Assembly (NCBI RefSeq): GCF_039233145.1
Contig: NZ_CP136419.1
Location: 2,330,001-2,394,000, forward strand
Length of the DNA: 64,000 nt
Reading direction: 5' to 3'
DNA from: Moorella humiferrea
GTDB taxonomy: Bacteria > Bacillota > DSM-521 > Neomoorellales > Neomoorellaceae
Positions 9,792 to 30,693 of this stretch are shown here, one piece after another. How positions within the stretch are numbered: position 1 is the first letter of the stretch; each line of letters starts with the position of its first letter. The translations under genes were made by a program, and so were the position numbers. The notes under the pieces were generated by a model. That model saw only the letters and a list, made by a program, of their open reading frames with translations. It searched no databases and was not told where the DNA came from.

Positions 9792-11367
9792 CACTAGCGT
9801 TGCATAAAAATTTTTAGCACAGTGCAAGGCAATATATGGAAGGCAGAATATGTTATATAATAACATTAATGGTGTATACAACCATGCATTTTCTTCCTTC
9901 ACTGGCCAAAGGACTTAGGTTATCAGGGGTAGTCCTTATCCACATATTGCCATATAAAGTTGCTTAAAGAACTAAGGGGTCATAAGTTACGTCGTTTAAA
10001 TAATCAGCTTCGCCAGCTAAAACTTGCTTTACTAAATCCTGATAGATGCCTTCATAGTCTATCTTGTGCCGCCCATAAGACCTTCGTTTGGGTTTACGGT
10101 GCAGGCTTTGGACGAAGAAGGTAAAGGGCTCATATAGACAGGTGCGGATTAAACGTTTAATAGTGAGCAATGGTCCTTGATAGCCGGCCTTTAATTGCAG
10201 CATAACCATCAGGCAGTAGGTTATTAGCGCTATGAAGAGCTGGTTTTCTACAGCCTGTTCGCTTTTACCATAAAAATGTTTCACCTGCAGGTGTTGTTTC
10301 ATCCATTTGAAGAAGAGTTCTATCTGCCAGCGCTTACGATAAATCTCGCTTAATTCTTCCGCCGGTAACTCGAAATCATTGGTGACTATAATTACCGGTT
10401 GCCCTTGGGTATCTTCGGTTGTTATCAGCCGTAAAGGGTGCTTCATTTTGGTAACTCCATCTTTGCCAAGGTAAACAAGCTGTTCCTTTTTAACCTTGCT
10501 GTCAGGGTTTACCGGCAACTCGGCGATTATTTCTACCAGAGCATTACCCTTTAAGCGGCTGGCAAAGCGGACGCCTTCTTCACAGTATCTGTCAAACTTC
10601 TTGTAATCGACATAGCCGCGGTCAAAGACGTTTAAGGCTTCTTCTTCCTCTACTACGAGGGTATCCATCTGGGTTTTATCTGCCTTCCGGGCCGGGGTGA
10701 CAATTGCTTTATCAGGTAGAACCTCTTCTTCACAGAACTTTAAGCGCAGGTGGAGTTTTATCCCGCTTTTAGTCCTACGAAACTCGGCCCAGAGGTACTG
10801 GGTAAAACAGAGACTAATGATAGTGGAATCGATGAGGTAAATACGTCCTGCGGTATTTCTTAAGTTTTCAAAGCCGATTTCCCGGCCTATCCGGGTGGTG
10901 AGATGGCTGAATAATAGCCGGATGAATTGCGGCGATAAATCCCTTAAACGGCGCGCTATCTGGGAGAAACTGATACTCTCTAAATTGATAGCCAGGCTAA
11001 ATTGCGGGTCATTGAAGCTATTGCTGATATCCCGCAAGCCATTAAGTTGTTCCAGCTGAGCGAAGGCTATTAGTTTAATGAGTTGAAGGGAATTTAGCTT
11101 CTTAGCGTACTTATCGACCCCCATACCGGCGGTTAACTGCCAAAAATAGTCGTTAGAAACTGGAGCAAACAGTTGATGAAATGTGGATAATGTGGTATCC
11201 TTACCTTGCATTTGGGCCTCCTTATGTTAGAGGTTGGGGCAAGGACTACCCTCAATCTCTAGTATAAGGAGTTTTTTCTTGCAAGGCTAGGTTATTTCAG
11301 GAATTTGGCTGTTTTTTGGGCGTTATTTCCCTTGACAAGTTTATTTTTTCTTTATGCAACGCTAGTG
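9792..11367 (-). mobile_element. IS4-family insertion sequence, copy 1
   Basis: A 1576-bp element is bounded by terminal inverted repeats starting CACTAGCGTTGCATAAA (17 bp perfect). It encodes one 415-aa DDE transposase on the minus strand. As far as can be read it is identical, in reverse orientation, to the element at 12794-14369. Flanks are TTTTGCACT on the left and CGTTTGCTT on the right, so this copy has no matching duplication of its own. Each flank matches, as reverse complement, a flank of the other copy. This is the signature of an inversion by recombination between the two copies. Confidence 0.95.
9964..11211 (-). CDS. IS4-family transposase, copy 1
   Basis: The transposase has 415 aa. 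The DDE triad is visible as Asp128 (LIDSTI), Asp197 (VFDRGY) and Glu298 within the IS4 signature Y-(2)-R-(3)-E-(6)-K (Tyr291, Arg294, Glu298, Lys305; RWQIELFFKWMK). The start ATG follows AGGAGGCCCAA. The reading frame is intact and identical to the second copy, so the element was active recently and may still be. Confidence 0.95.
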   Translation of the reverse strand: MQGKDTTLSTFHQLFAPVSNDYFWQLTAGMGVDKYAKKLNSLQLIKLIAFAQLEQLNGLRDISNSFNDPQFSLAINLESISFSQIARRLRDLSPQFIRLLFSHLTTRIGREIGFENLRNTAGRIYLIDSTIISLCFTQYLWAEFRRTKSGIKLHLRLKFCEEEVLPDKAIVTPARKADKTQMDTLVVEEEEALNVFDRGYVDYKKFDRYCEEGVRFASRLKGNALVEIIAELPVNPDSKVKKEQLVYLGKDGVTKMKHPLRLITTEDTQGQPVIIVTNDFELPAEELSEIYRKRWQIELFFKWMKQHLQVKHFYGKSEQAVENQLFIALITYCLMVMLQLKAGYQGPLLTIKRLIRTCLYEPFTFFVQSLHRKPKRRSYGRHKIDYEGIYQDLVKQVLAGEADYLNDVTYDPLVL

Positions 11368-12057
11368 CGTTTGCTTTTAAATAAAATTATAACCGCCCAG
11401 GAAAGCGAACGCCAGCGTATCGCCCGCGAACTACATGATGAAACAAGCCAGTCCCTATCGGCCCTCCTGGTCGGCCTTAAAACGGCTGCCACCATGGCCG
11501 GCCAAAAGGAGGAAGGAGTGGAGAATATTTTGGAGGAGTTAAAGGAAGGCGTTAACCAGGCCTTAAAGGAACTCCACCGTATTATTTATGACCTGCGCCC
11601 CAGTTTACTTGATGACCTGGGGCTCATTCCGGCCCTTCGCTGGTATTTGGAAACGAAACTAAAGCCTACCGGTATCTGCCTAAACTTTAATATTGGAGGA
11701 AATCCCGGGCGCCTACCGGCGGAAATAGAGATAGCTATTTTCCGGATTACCCAGGAGGCCGTTACCAATATTATTAAATACGCTTCTGCGCGGCAGGTTG
11801 CCGTAGAATTGCATTTCTTTCAAGATGAGATTAAGCTTCAGGTTAAAGATGACGGTTGCGGCTTTGATATGGAGGCGGTGATGAATCCACGGAATGCACG
11901 CAGACCTCTAGGGATCCTGGGCATGAAAGAAAGGGCAAGATTGCTGGGGGGAGACCTGGAAGTGCGGACCGCCGCCGGGCAGGGTACGGAAATCAACGTA
12001 ACCTTACCTGTTAGCAAGGAGGAAGGTTATAATGGCCATCAAGGTTTTGATTGTTGA
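11305..12057 (+). pseudogene. NarX-type histidine kinase, C-terminal half (inverted fragment)
   Basis: From 11368 on, this is the catalytic half of the module 1 sensor kinase: HisKA_3 dimerisation motif ARELHDETSQSL, then an HATPase region with NIIKYASA, DDGCGFD and a closing LGILGMKERARLLGG. The open frame begins upstream inside the IS, at TTG 11305, which adds a hydrophobic 21-residue stretch (MAVFWALFPLTSLFF and on) fused in frame. Joining the N-terminal half (15110 down to 14370) to base 11377 restores one frame of 473 codons, the same length as the paralogue at 46249-47670. It was separated by IS insertion and then flipped. It still overlaps the regulator gene by 26 bp. Confidence 0.9.
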
Positions 12058-12679
12058 TGATCATACCCTCTTTAGGGCCGGCCTGAAGGCATTGCTGTCT
12101 TTCCAGGAAGATATCCGGGTAATAGGGGAGGCAGGTAACGGCGAAGAAGCTTTAAAATTAATTCGTTGCTTAAATCCGGATGTCGTGTTGCTGGATATTG
12201 CCATGCCAGGCCTTGACGGCCTGGCCGTAACCCGCCAGATTAAAGATTACAATGAAGGGATAAAAGTATTAATCCTGACCCAGCATGAAAACAGGGAGTA
12301 TTTGCTTCCGGCACTAAAAATGGGCGCTTCCGGTTACGTGTTGAAGAGGGCGGCTGCCGACGAGCTGGTAGCTGCCATCCGCTCCCTCTATGCCGGCAAG
12401 GCCTTCCTGGACCCCGCCATAACGGAAACGGTCCTGGCCGACTACCGTTATGGCGGGATGATGGAAGAGACAGATGAACTTGATACCCTGACAGAACGGG
12501 AGCGGGAAATCTTGATTCTGCTGGCCCAGGGCCGTACTAACCGGGAAATTGCCGGATTGCTGCATATCAGCAGTAAGACTGTAGATTTTCACCGCACCAA
12601 TCTAATGCGTAAACTTAATTTGCATAACCGCATCGAGTTAACTAAATATGCCTGGCGCCGTGGCCTGGTAAAACCTTAA
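12032..12679 (+). CDS. NarL/FixJ-type response regulator (module 1)
   Basis: This 215-aa regulator has a receiver domain (Asp9/Asp10, phospho-acceptor Asp55 in LLDIAMPG) and a C-terminal LuxR-type helix-turn-helix with LTEREREILILLAQGRTNREIA. ATG 12032 follows GGAGGAAGG within the end of the kinase frame, so the pair was coupled. The gene is intact but lies in the inverted segment, pointing away from the molybdoenzyme operon it most likely controls. Since its kinase is broken, phosphorylation would need another kinase, such as the one of the second module. Ancestrally it preceded the Fe-S gene, as its paralogue at 45549-46229 does. Confidence 0.9.
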   Translation: MAIKVLIVDDHTLFRAGLKALLSFQEDIRVIGEAGNGEEALKLIRCLNPDVVLLDIAMPGLDGLAVTRQIKDYNEGIKVLILTQHENREYLLPALKMGASGYVLKRAAADELVAAIRSLYAGKAFLDPAITETVLADYRYGGMMEETDELDTLTEREREILILLAQGRTNREIAGLLHISSKTVDFHRTNLMRKLNLHNRIELTKYAWRRGLVKP

Positions 12680-12793: not shown

Positions 12794-14369
12794 CACTAGC
12801 GTTGCATAAAGAAAAAATAAACTTGTCAAGGGAAATAACGCCCAAAAAACAGCCAAATTCCTGAAATAACCTAGCCTTGCAAGAAAAAACTCCTTATACT
12901 AGAGATTGAGGGTAGTCCTTGCCCCAACCTCTAACATAAGGAGGCCCAAATGCAAGGTAAGGATACCACATTATCCACATTTCATCAACTGTTTGCTCCA
13001 GTTTCTAACGACTATTTTTGGCAGTTAACCGCCGGTATGGGGGTCGATAAGTACGCTAAGAAGCTAAATTCCCTTCAACTCATTAAACTAATAGCCTTCG
13101 CTCAGCTGGAACAACTTAATGGCTTGCGGGATATCAGCAATAGCTTCAATGACCCGCAATTTAGCCTGGCTATCAATTTAGAGAGTATCAGTTTCTCCCA
13201 GATAGCGCGCCGTTTAAGGGATTTATCGCCGCAATTCATCCGGCTATTATTCAGCCATCTCACCACCCGGATAGGCCGGGAAATCGGCTTTGAAAACTTA
13301 AGAAATACCGCAGGACGTATTTACCTCATCGATTCCACTATCATTAGTCTCTGTTTTACCCAGTACCTCTGGGCCGAGTTTCGTAGGACTAAAAGCGGGA
13401 TAAAACTCCACCTGCGCTTAAAGTTCTGTGAAGAAGAGGTTCTACCTGATAAAGCAATTGTCACCCCGGCCCGGAAGGCAGATAAAACCCAGATGGATAC
13501 CCTCGTAGTAGAGGAAGAAGAAGCCTTAAACGTCTTTGACCGCGGCTATGTCGATTACAAGAAGTTTGACAGATACTGTGAAGAAGGCGTCCGCTTTGCC
13601 AGCCGCTTAAAGGGTAATGCTCTGGTAGAAATAATCGCCGAGTTGCCGGTAAACCCTGACAGCAAGGTTAAAAAGGAACAGCTTGTTTACCTTGGCAAAG
13701 ATGGAGTTACCAAAATGAAGCACCCTTTACGGCTGATAACAACCGAAGATACCCAAGGGCAACCGGTAATTATAGTCACCAATGATTTCGAGTTACCGGC
13801 GGAAGAATTAAGCGAGATTTATCGTAAGCGCTGGCAGATAGAACTCTTCTTCAAATGGATGAAACAACACCTGCAGGTGAAACATTTTTATGGTAAAAGC
13901 GAACAGGCTGTAGAAAACCAGCTCTTCATAGCGCTAATAACCTACTGCCTGATGGTTATGCTGCAATTAAAGGCCGGCTATCAAGGACCATTGCTCACTA
14001 TTAAACGTTTAATCCGCACCTGTCTATATGAGCCCTTTACCTTCTTCGTCCAAAGCCTGCACCGTAAACCCAAACGAAGGTCTTATGGGCGGCACAAGAT
14101 AGACTATGAAGGCATCTATCAGGATTTAGTAAAGCAAGTTTTAGCTGGCGAAGCTGATTATTTAAACGACGTAACTTATGACCCCTTAGTTCTTTAAGCA
14201 ACTTTATATGGCAATATGTGGATAAGGACTACCCCTGATAACCTAAGTCCTTTGGCCAGTGAAGGAAGAAAATGCATGGTTGTATACACCATTAATGTTA
14301 TTATATAACATATTCTGCCTTCCATATATTGCCTTGCACTGTGCTAAAAATTTTTATGCAACGCTAGTG
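12794..14369 (+). mobile_element. IS4-family insertion sequence, copy 2
   Basis: This is the second 1576-bp copy, opposite in orientation to copy 1, with the same 17-bp terminal repeats CACTAGCGTTGCATAAA. Left flank is AGTGCAAAA, right flank AAGCAAACG. Its right end lies inside the kinase gene: the terminal repeat supplies a His codon and the TAG that ends the N-terminal fragment. Confidence 0.95.
12950..14197 (+). CDS. IS4-family transposase, copy 2
   Basis: This is the same 415-aa transposase as at 9964-11211, with intact DDE residues (Asp128, Asp197, Glu298) and the YREK signature. ATG follows AGGAGGCCCAA. Confidence 0.95.
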   Translation: MQGKDTTLSTFHQLFAPVSNDYFWQLTAGMGVDKYAKKLNSLQLIKLIAFAQLEQLNGLRDISNSFNDPQFSLAINLESISFSQIARRLRDLSPQFIRLLFSHLTTRIGREIGFENLRNTAGRIYLIDSTIISLCFTQYLWAEFRRTKSGIKLHLRLKFCEEEVLPDKAIVTPARKADKTQMDTLVVEEEEALNVFDRGYVDYKKFDRYCEEGVRFASRLKGNALVEIIAELPVNPDSKVKKEQLVYLGKDGVTKMKHPLRLITTEDTQGQPVIIVTNDFELPAEELSEIYRKRWQIELFFKWMKQHLQVKHFYGKSEQAVENQLFIALITYCLMVMLQLKAGYQGPLLTIKRLIRTCLYEPFTFFVQSLHRKPKRRSYGRHKIDYEGIYQDLVKQVLAGEADYLNDVTYDPLVL

Positions 14370-29116: not shown

Positions 29117-29178
29117 GACCGGTAACCGGTAACAATTAAATATATAAAGAAATTAATTAAAAATGGGGGTTGAAAATC

Positions 29179-29553
29179 ATGAGTAAAGACATGGGGAATC
29201 TCAATGTCGAAGAATTGCTTGCGAAAATGGCCCAAGAAACCGGCAGTGAACCCAAACCGATGAAGTATTTGGCGCAACTGCGGCCGGAAATGGTTTTGGA
29301 ACATGCCCGCAGCAAGCAGTTTGCAGCCTCAGGACAGGCTATCCCGGAAAAGTATAAAGCCTTGATCAGTTTCGCTGTTGCTGCCGCCCTGGGTTCTGAG
29401 AGCTGTACCCTCACCCAGGCGAAAATCGCCCGTCGTAAAGGAGCTACCGCCGAAGAAATAATCGAGGCCCTAATTACCGCCCGTTTTACTACTTCCTCTA
29501 CTATCTTTTCCACTGCAGTAAACGCCCTGGAAATGCTCGCCGGGGAAAAATAG
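29179..29553 (+). CDS. AhpD/carboxymuconolactone decarboxylase-like protein
   Basis: This 124-aa helical protein has the CMD-domain layout: ALISFAVAAALGSESCTLTQAKIARRKGATAEEIIEALITARF. In AhpD the core is CXXC followed by a conserved His. Here the first Cys is Ser (SESC) and the His position is Gln, so classical disulfide peroxidase chemistry should not work; only one core Cys remains. ATG 29179 follows TGGGGG. It is last in the MFS-DGC operon, and the hairpin at 29584-29604 ends the transcript. Related CMD proteins are common in arsenic clusters. Confidence 0.75.
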   Translation: MSKDMGNLNVEELLAKMAQETGSEPKPMKYLAQLRPEMVLEHARSKQFAASGQAIPEKYKALISFAVAAALGSESCTLTQAKIARRKGATAEEIIEALITARFTTSSTIFSTAVNALEMLAGEK

Positions 29554-29583: not shown

Positions 29584-29604
29584 AAAGGGGCTTAATGCCC
29601 CTTT
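29584..29604 (+). terminator. terminator hairpin, first copy of a 21-bp duplication
   Basis: AAAGGGGC-TTAAT-GCCCCTTT ends the MFS-DGC-AhpD operon. An identical copy at 29714-29734 flanks the other side of a 109-bp insert. Confidence 0.75.
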
Positions 29605-29713
29605 CAGGCTGTAGAAAAAGTCCCTTTTAAGGTAAAAGCCTTCTTAAAATCCGCGAAATTCTCTTGGTTTCAGGGGACTAGTTTTTAAAAAATAGGGGTT
29701 TGTCAACAGTCTG
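29605..29713. mobile_element. 109-bp MITE-like element inserted into a terminator hairpin
   Basis: It begins CAGGCTGTAGAAAAAGTCCC and ends, read on the other strand, CAGACTGTTGACAAACCCC; these are imperfect terminal inverted repeats of about 17 bp. It is flanked by exact 21-bp direct repeats, each being the whole hairpin AAAGGGGC-TTAAT-GCCCCTTT. It has no coding capacity. It looks like a non-autonomous derivative of an IS that targets palindromes, with the hairpin as target duplication. The ends resemble IS1182-like termini, but family assignment is uncertain. Confidence 0.7.
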
Positions 29714-29734
29714 AAAGGGGCTTAATGCCCCTTT
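29714..29734 (-). terminator. terminator hairpin, second copy (CDF gene end)
   Basis: This is the same 21-bp hairpin as at 29584-29604. It overlaps the stop codon of the CDF gene and can end its transcript. Confidence 0.65.
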
Positions 29735-30693
29735 TAAATTATGCAGGAAAGCAACCCCCTACCCGTGCAGCCTTCGTATTCCATTTGGAGCATAATGTGC
29801 TCGATGCCGAATTTATCCCGCAATAAGGCTTCCACTTGCCGACGTAGCTTTTCCGATTCACTGATAGATATATCCTGTTCCAGGTCGATGTGGCCTTCAA
29901 AATTAATCTGCCGCTCTCCCAACTGCCAGACATGCACATGATGCAGATCGCGGATACCCGGTAAGCTTTTGATCGAGGTATATATTTCCTCCAGTTTTAT
30001 CCCTTTGGGTGTGCCTTCCATGAGAATCTGGACTGTATCAGCAACAATTTCATAGCTTTCATTAATGACATACAGGCCAATTAAGATGGTTAAAAGGGGG
30101 TCGATCCAGGTTATCTGCCAAAAATAGATCGCGATACCGCCGGCAACTACCGCCACTGAGGACAAGGCGTCGGAGAATAAATGCAGGTATGAAGAACGCA
30201 CGTTCAGGCTCTTGCCGGCGTCGCGCCGCAGGAGTAAAGCCGCCAGGGTGTTGGCTAATAAACCGAGGGCTCCGACAACCATCATCATTGAGCTATTGAT
30301 AGCCTGGGGATGTAGTAAGCGGGTTGCCGATTCCTTAAAAAGCAAAAGGGAAATCGCTATTAACACAGCGGAATTGAACAGGGCGGCCAGAATCTCCAGA
30401 CGCTGAAAACCGAAGGTTTTCTCCAGGGTTGCCTCCCGCCGGGAAAAACGTAACGCCGCCAGGCTGATGGCCACGGCCGCCGCATCACTTAAGTTGTGTA
30501 GGGCATCGGAAACCAAGGAAAGGCTTCCCGCCAGTAAGCCTCCAGCTATTTCCGCAACGGTAATAAGCAGGTTTAACAGCATCGTTAGCACCAGGTTCAG
30601 GCCGTTTACCGTTCCTGTTTCCAGATGGCTGTGGTGATGATGGTGATCATGGTGATGCAGACGCCTATCATTGTTATGCTCATGATTCTCCAC
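29734..30693 (-). CDS. cation diffusion facilitator (CzcD/ZitB-like) metal exporter
   Basis: This 319-aa exporter has six hydrophobic segments. The His-rich N-terminus (residues 1-25, with HHHDHHHHHSH) is a metal trap. Metal-site motifs SDALHNLSDAA (segment 2) and HLFSDALSSVA (segment 5) show the HXXXD pattern of zinc-type CDF proteins, and the C-terminal cytoplasmic domain carries HHVHVWQLG. GTG 30693 follows GGGGTGGG. It exports Zn(II), Cd(II) or Co(II) in exchange for protons. It follows arsC at a distance on the same strand; linkage is not shown. Confidence 0.92.
   Translation of the reverse strand: MENHEHNNDRRLHHHDHHHHHSHLETGTVNGLNLVLTMLLNLLITVAEIAGGLLAGSLSLVSDALHNLSDAAAVAISLAALRFSRREATLEKTFGFQRLEILAALFNSAVLIAISLLLFKESATRLLHPQAINSSMMMVVGALGLLANTLAALLLRRDAGKSLNVRSSYLHLFSDALSSVAVVAGGIAIYFWQITWIDPLLTILIGLYVINESYEIVADTVQILMEGTPKGIKLEEIYTSIKSLPGIRDLHHVHVWQLGERQINFEGHIDLEQDISISESEKLRRQVEALLRDKFGIEHIMLQMEYEGCTGRGLLSCII

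Follow-up and report, generated by a model that had tools for sequence, protein, structure and literature searches.

The 109-bp element at positions 29605-29713 of the window (the whole 64-kb stretch of DNA that was analysed) is, with a probability that we put at about 90%, a non-autonomous derivative of an insertion sequence (IS) of the IS1182 family, from a group that chooses terminator stem-loops as its targets and duplicates the whole hairpin. What is directly observed is the sequence of the element's ends, the transposase family of its relatives, the hairpin-length direct repeats centred on the hairpin axis, and the single-hairpin empty sites. Within this hairpin-duplicating IS1182 group, the window element is an orphan. 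As a single relic it is the ordinary part of the story; the rule that it exposes is the interesting part.

The element and its flanking hairpins

Each end of the element abuts a complete hairpin, AAAGGGGC-TTAAT-GCCCCTTT, with a perfect 8-bp stem and a 5-nt loop. The left copy (29584-29604) and the right copy (29714-29734) are identical, constituting an exact 21-bp target duplication with a start-to-start spacing of 130 bp; as a target repeat, it has an axis offset of 0 and pairing at 8 of 9 positions. The terminal inverted repeats, CAGGCTGTAGAAAAA on the left (29605-29619, + strand) and CAGACTGTTGACAAA on the right (29699-29713, - strand, read as the reverse complement and followed inward by CCCCTA), are identical at 12 of 15 positions. 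The right end is shared with many IS1182 elements; the left end may be compared with CAGGCTGTTGACAAAGT, the other end of the element at locus L083. The original prediction of an element with imperfect inverted ends between exact hairpin repeats thus holds, in its coordinates as in its sequences.

The two hairpins are the only pair of 21-mers repeated at a distance of less than 500 bp in the window, and they account for 2 of its 16 perfect hairpins (stem at least 8, loop 3-8). The hairpin-flanked layout far exceeds chance. The core differs from the window in base composition (38.5% vs 51.8% GC). It is too short to code for an IS1182 transposase and none is listed there; since its ends are common to relatives that do bear a transposase, it is a derivative rather than a complete member of the family. 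An Rfam search yielded nothing above threshold, and a terminator scan, whose rule demands five T among the eight bases beyond the stem, called neither of the two hairpins a terminator.

The element lies between convergent genes. The upstream one (29170-29553, + strand) is AhpD-domain-like, with a match below the curated cut-off; the downstream one (29734-30693, - strand) encodes a CDF (cation diffusion facilitator) transporter (TIGR01297, 267 bits), and its stop codon overlaps the last base of the right hairpin copy. The insertion leaves a stem-loop directly behind each gene. The duplication does not extend to the T-tract beyond the stem: the gene-near hairpin copy, with three T retained within its stem, runs into the CAG end of the element, and the native T/A tract remains beside the far copy. 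Because the T-tract was not duplicated, the gene-proximal copy is a hairpin and not a full terminator. The suggestion that each convergent gene keeps a terminator after the insertion is therefore right for the stem-loop but not for the tract that should follow it. Judged from the sequence, a landing that is nearly harmless to the two genes is plausible.

The same site was sought in a genus sample of 11 genomes, the element's own included. Its flanks were matched at two loci of one genome (G001) and at one of another (G010), and all three loci carry one hairpin, AAGGGGCGTAATRCCCCTT or AAGGGGCGCAATTGCCCCTT, at the orthologous place and no insert. The left context matches that of the window in one of the G001 loci, and over the ~150 bp to the right of the hairpin none of the three resembles it; given that difference in the right flank, these are orthologous single hairpins rather than base-exact empty sites. 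Single-hairpin sites without an insert do exist in relatives, as was anticipated, but an exact empty counterpart of the window's own site was not seen among them.

The search for a partner in the same genome

The genome, a single contig of 2,671,946 bases, holds no second copy of the 109-bp core. Nor does it hold an IS with the same ends: the pattern SAGNYTGTNGANAAA matches only the element and one coding-like site. The original prediction had looked to a second copy or a full IS with these ends and had counted their absence as one of two possible findings against itself; neither was found in these 2.67 Mb. With a single copy and no IS partner in the genome, the 109-bp form may never have moved as such, and the element could have arisen in situ from an IS by loss of its middle part. 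A MITE is recognised by several copies of the short form and by a partner in the same genome that has matching ends; here, there is one copy in the genome, there are none elsewhere among the 18 genomes of the family, and the partner is missing. A search of these 18 genomes and of 72,556 plasmids for any relative of the core returned only a 24-bp chance match, in the plasmids.

Several candidate partners were considered and rejected. The sequence CAGGCTGTAGAAAA has many matches in the genome, but it is internal to the gene of an IS4-like transposase present in many copies, and its resemblance to an IS end is a coincidence. Two 467-aa PF13751 proteins of the same genome belong to elements with unrelated ends. 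Within the genus, the nearest IS1182-type element found is a 1943-bp one in genome G004, with the end GAGACTGTTGACCAAAC; it duplicates CTAG rather than a hairpin, one copy being flanked by exact repeats and a second by CTAG and CTAA.

Elsewhere in the window, two identical genes for a 415-aa IS4-like transposase (the name is a reading of the protein), which has many copies in the genome, lie in inverted orientation at 9964-11211 (- strand) and 12950-14197 (+ strand). They flank a sensor kinase/response regulator pair (11305-12679; gene names read from the translations) in a layout like that of a composite transposon.

IS1182-family relatives with the same ends

Terminal repeats of the CAGRYTGTNGANAAA type are found on both sides of the window element. 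Its ends agree with those of the L083 element at 35 of 40 positions, where the best of 20,000 random pairs reaches 29. The right-end pattern SAGACTGTTGACNAACCCC occurs in 81 stretches of the genome collection, many of them some tens of bases from the end of a contig, as is expected of a repeated IS, and in 18 stretches of viral contigs; it yields IS1182-family insertion sequences in several phyla. The transposases of three of the pattern elements are assigned to IS1182 by NF033551 (339, 477 and 294 bits, with a cut-off of 270); they have the Pfam domains DUF772 and DDE_Tnp_1_6, except for a partial one with DDE_Tnp_1_6 alone. A perfect stem of at least 5 ends at the junction in 50 of 81 testable ends, as against 2.3% of 53,389 control positions. 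The other 31 ends lack such a stem, although some of them are imperfect hairpins, and 11 of the 31 belong to a set of 12 GAG-starting ends, most of which come from one Planctomycetota record set.

Two side observations concern these ends. Another short element, bounded by GAGACTGTTGACAAACCCC, recurs in L144 and in L068, L075, L078, L102, L109, L118, L123, L131 and L132, all of these but L144 from Planctomycetota Yes70-35; it measures 141 bp in L075 and 130 bp in L118 and is apparently a multi-copy MITE that lies off hairpins. In L083 and similar elements, a terminator-like palindrome, AAACCCCTAGA...TCTAGGGGTTT, is located ~14 bp inside the left junction; going by its form, it could block transcription entering the element.

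Whole-hairpin repeats around the relatives

When the phylum was searched with the L083 transposase, 22 of 398 genomes matched, with 30 loci. A script identified exact stem-loop repeats of 20-34 bp at 13 of these; with L176 (25 bp) and L177 (one mismatch), reading by eye brings the whole-hairpin repeats to 15, one of them with a mismatch. The remaining loci comprise L167 and L170, which lie between two different hairpins, L180 and L191, which have 4-bp repeats in palindromes, six with only one usable end and five without recognisable ends. In a survey of plasmids, a second transposase matched 330 records; hairpin repeats flank 10 of the 11 copies examined, and nine of the 11 lie between convergent annotated genes (one of these with a small overlapping hypothetical gene). 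Seven further copies, from genomes matched in the phylum search, all have hairpin repeats. Over-representation of IS1182 between convergent genes is noted in a large survey (PMC9208149).

For 28 repeats (that of the window and those of 27 relatives) the length ranges from 18 to 34 bp, with a different hairpin at each site. The axis offset is zero in 25 of them; 23 start with A and 26 end with T. The flanks contain, on average, 4.1 A in six bases on the left and 4.1 T in six on the right: a stem-loop set between an A-tract and a T-tract has the look of an intrinsic terminator. At the insertion in the Bacillus pumilus plasmid pBP-T2, the stem extends 16 bp past the repeat, so that cutting does not always coincide with the base of the longest stem that could form; the loop, or the border of the A/T-tract, may instead define its position.

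Four filled sites have empty counterparts that carry one hairpin, all in finished plasmids. In B. pumilus, the plasmid pBP-T2 carries a pair of 28-bp hairpins flanking 1548 bp, and pBP-33-3 has just one at that place; the difference between the plasmid lengths, 8008 and 6432, is 1576, which is exactly 1548 + 28. The Aminobacter plasmids pAA01 and pMDW1 have one hairpin at the site matching that of Aminobacter SR38; pRA_T24_3 of R. anhuiense matches the site in p4 of Rhizobium NLR16a, with a hairpin that differs by one base. Salinivibrio TGB11 aligns at 91% across the joined flanks of TGB19 (TGB4 matches in the left flank only). At the two base-exact sites, those of B. pumilus and Aminobacter, zero bases were lost and the gain is the element plus one extra hairpin. 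That a transposase targets stem-loops and duplicates them was the core of the original prediction, and it is borne out by IS1182 relatives with the same ends, by 34 further hairpin-repeat insertions (the 27 relatives and the additional seven) and by these single-hairpin empty sites.

A different arrangement is seen in L167, L170, L204 and the 407-bp element of L106, where the complete hairpin on the left differs from that on the right, as is expected if an element transposed intramolecularly into a second hairpin with deletion of the intervening DNA, or if recombination took place between two copies.

Mechanism and alternatives

DDE transposases join the 3' ends of their elements to opposite strands of the target. 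In the mechanism that we favor, the two joins would be made at the two 5' feet of a stem-loop, extruded or otherwise recognised, so that the stagger between them would be the stem-loop itself, and gap repair would copy it to leave a complete hairpin on each side. Placing strand transfer at the 5' feet, like the proposal that the structure of the DNA is read rather than its sequence, is our inference. The window insertion would have been made by a transposase acting in trans and now absent from the genome, or else would descend from a past full-length copy.

Our main reading leaves room for two last steps. In one, what landed between the convergent genes was a full-length IS1182-family element, which was then shortened on the spot by loss of its middle, so that the 109-bp form has never moved itself. 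This is a sub-case of the main reading, with the same family and the same landing, and we give it a little under an even chance: the short form occurs once in the genome and was not found elsewhere in the family, and full-length copies that have decayed between intact hairpin repeats are seen at other loci (L176, for example), but both ends of the window element are intact, 109 bp is a typical size for a MITE, and short elements with closely related ends occur elsewhere (130 bp in L118, 141 bp in L075, 407 bp in L106). Far more remote is the thought that no insertion took place, the two identical hairpins having pre-existed or arisen by local tandem duplication, with the core as unrelated intergenic DNA between them. 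Bacteria can and do carry repeated terminators. It would, however, be hard to see why the core should start and stop exactly at the repeats, with IS1182 ends, why the same layout should recur at 34 other sites with other hairpins, and why relatives should have a single hairpin; we regard this account as very nearly untenable.

How the target is recognised is a separate matter. It could be read in duplex DNA as a symmetric inverted repeat, with one transposase subunit on each arm, or through an RNA polymerase paused at the terminator, rather than as an extruded hairpin. Most repeats do run from A to T and lie between an A-tract and a T-tract, which provides some shared base context, but the stem sequences share nothing else that is evident, and the repeat length of 18-34 bp tracks the size of the hairpin, which would not be predicted from a fixed protein ruler acting on duplex DNA. 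We consider recognition of this kind unlikely and prefer the reading of a folded hairpin.

If IS1182-type transposases do read secondary structure in the way suggested, with rather less than even confidence, at the end of the comparison below, the length of the target repeat would be set by the fold of the target and not by the enzyme. Most transposases have a fixed target stagger; here, the stagger follows hairpin size, from 18 to 34 bp, in several phyla. Duplicating a terminator hairpin would make the landing nearly harmless, and insertion between convergent genes would be explained, each gene keeping its 3' hairpin. These insertions would also offer a natural readout of hairpin exposure in living cells.

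Comparison with known IS1182 systems

Full-text literature, in a search that did not cover the main reviews, yielded no description of whole-stem-loop duplication by an IS. For IS1182, long variable repeats may be entered in the family tables of ISfinder and TnPedia, and parts of what is described here may already be known to curators.

IS1272 and TnSha1, also of the IS1182 family, choose hairpins as targets and remove them without making a target duplication (Furi 2016, PMC4923244; Wan 2017, PMC5678879). Siguier et al. are cited in both papers for palindrome-targeting IS1182 members, with the comment in Wan et al. (PMC5678879) that detailed data were not given. Wan et al. 2017 also outline three pathways: a, deletion, from their own IS1272 data; b, duplication of the whole stem-loop, drawn as hypothetical; and c, duplication of the loop only (PMC5678879). 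The hairpin repeats that we find in many genomes fit pathway b, and provide real cases for what was only drawn as a possibility for IS1272. IS1272 and TnSha1 share with the window's group the transposase family and a hairpin target, often a terminator, without sequence consensus; they differ in that part or all of the hairpin is removed rather than the whole duplicated. Their mode is absent from the window, where both hairpins are complete and identical.

A 4-bp target repeat is also absent from the window element, the repeat of which is 21 bp. Repeats of 4 bp are recorded for ISPse1 and ISCaa15 (PMC3281130, PMC3196728), which belong to the same family as the window's group but differ from it in duplicating 4 bp and not a whole stem-loop. 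The G393 copies resemble the window element in family and in having palindrome targets, and differ in their 4-bp repeat at the palindrome centre: three of four copies have such a repeat (CCAG, ACGT, CTGG) in the middle of an imperfect palindrome, and the flanks of the fourth do not match. These repeats would fit pathway c. The element of this kind at L180, L191 and L212 (G393) has the ends GGGTCTGTTGACAAA, and its imperfect palindromes share CAAATT...AATTTG-like arms. The G004 copies are likewise of the family and are set apart by a CTAG repeat without a palindrome. In a tree of 33 transposases, the 26 hairpin-flanked rows lie on one side of a single branch, for which support is weak (45/92); the outsiders are on long branches and IS1272 is not among the sequences placed.

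We suggest tentatively, and with rather less than even confidence, that IS1182 transposases read DNA secondary structure and that the family is split by the point of attack: at the 5' feet, with the hairpin duplicated (the window's group); in the loop, with a 4-bp repeat (the G393 group); or at the 3' feet, with the hairpin lost (IS1272). Among the nearest counterparts of the window element are the L083 element, the ISBspe1-annotated copy in pBpOF4-01 and the copy in B. pumilus pBP-T2. All three have ends of the same type and a whole stem-loop as direct repeat in an A/T-tract context; unlike the window element, with its 109 bp and no transposase, they are about 1.5-1.7 kb long and carry one.
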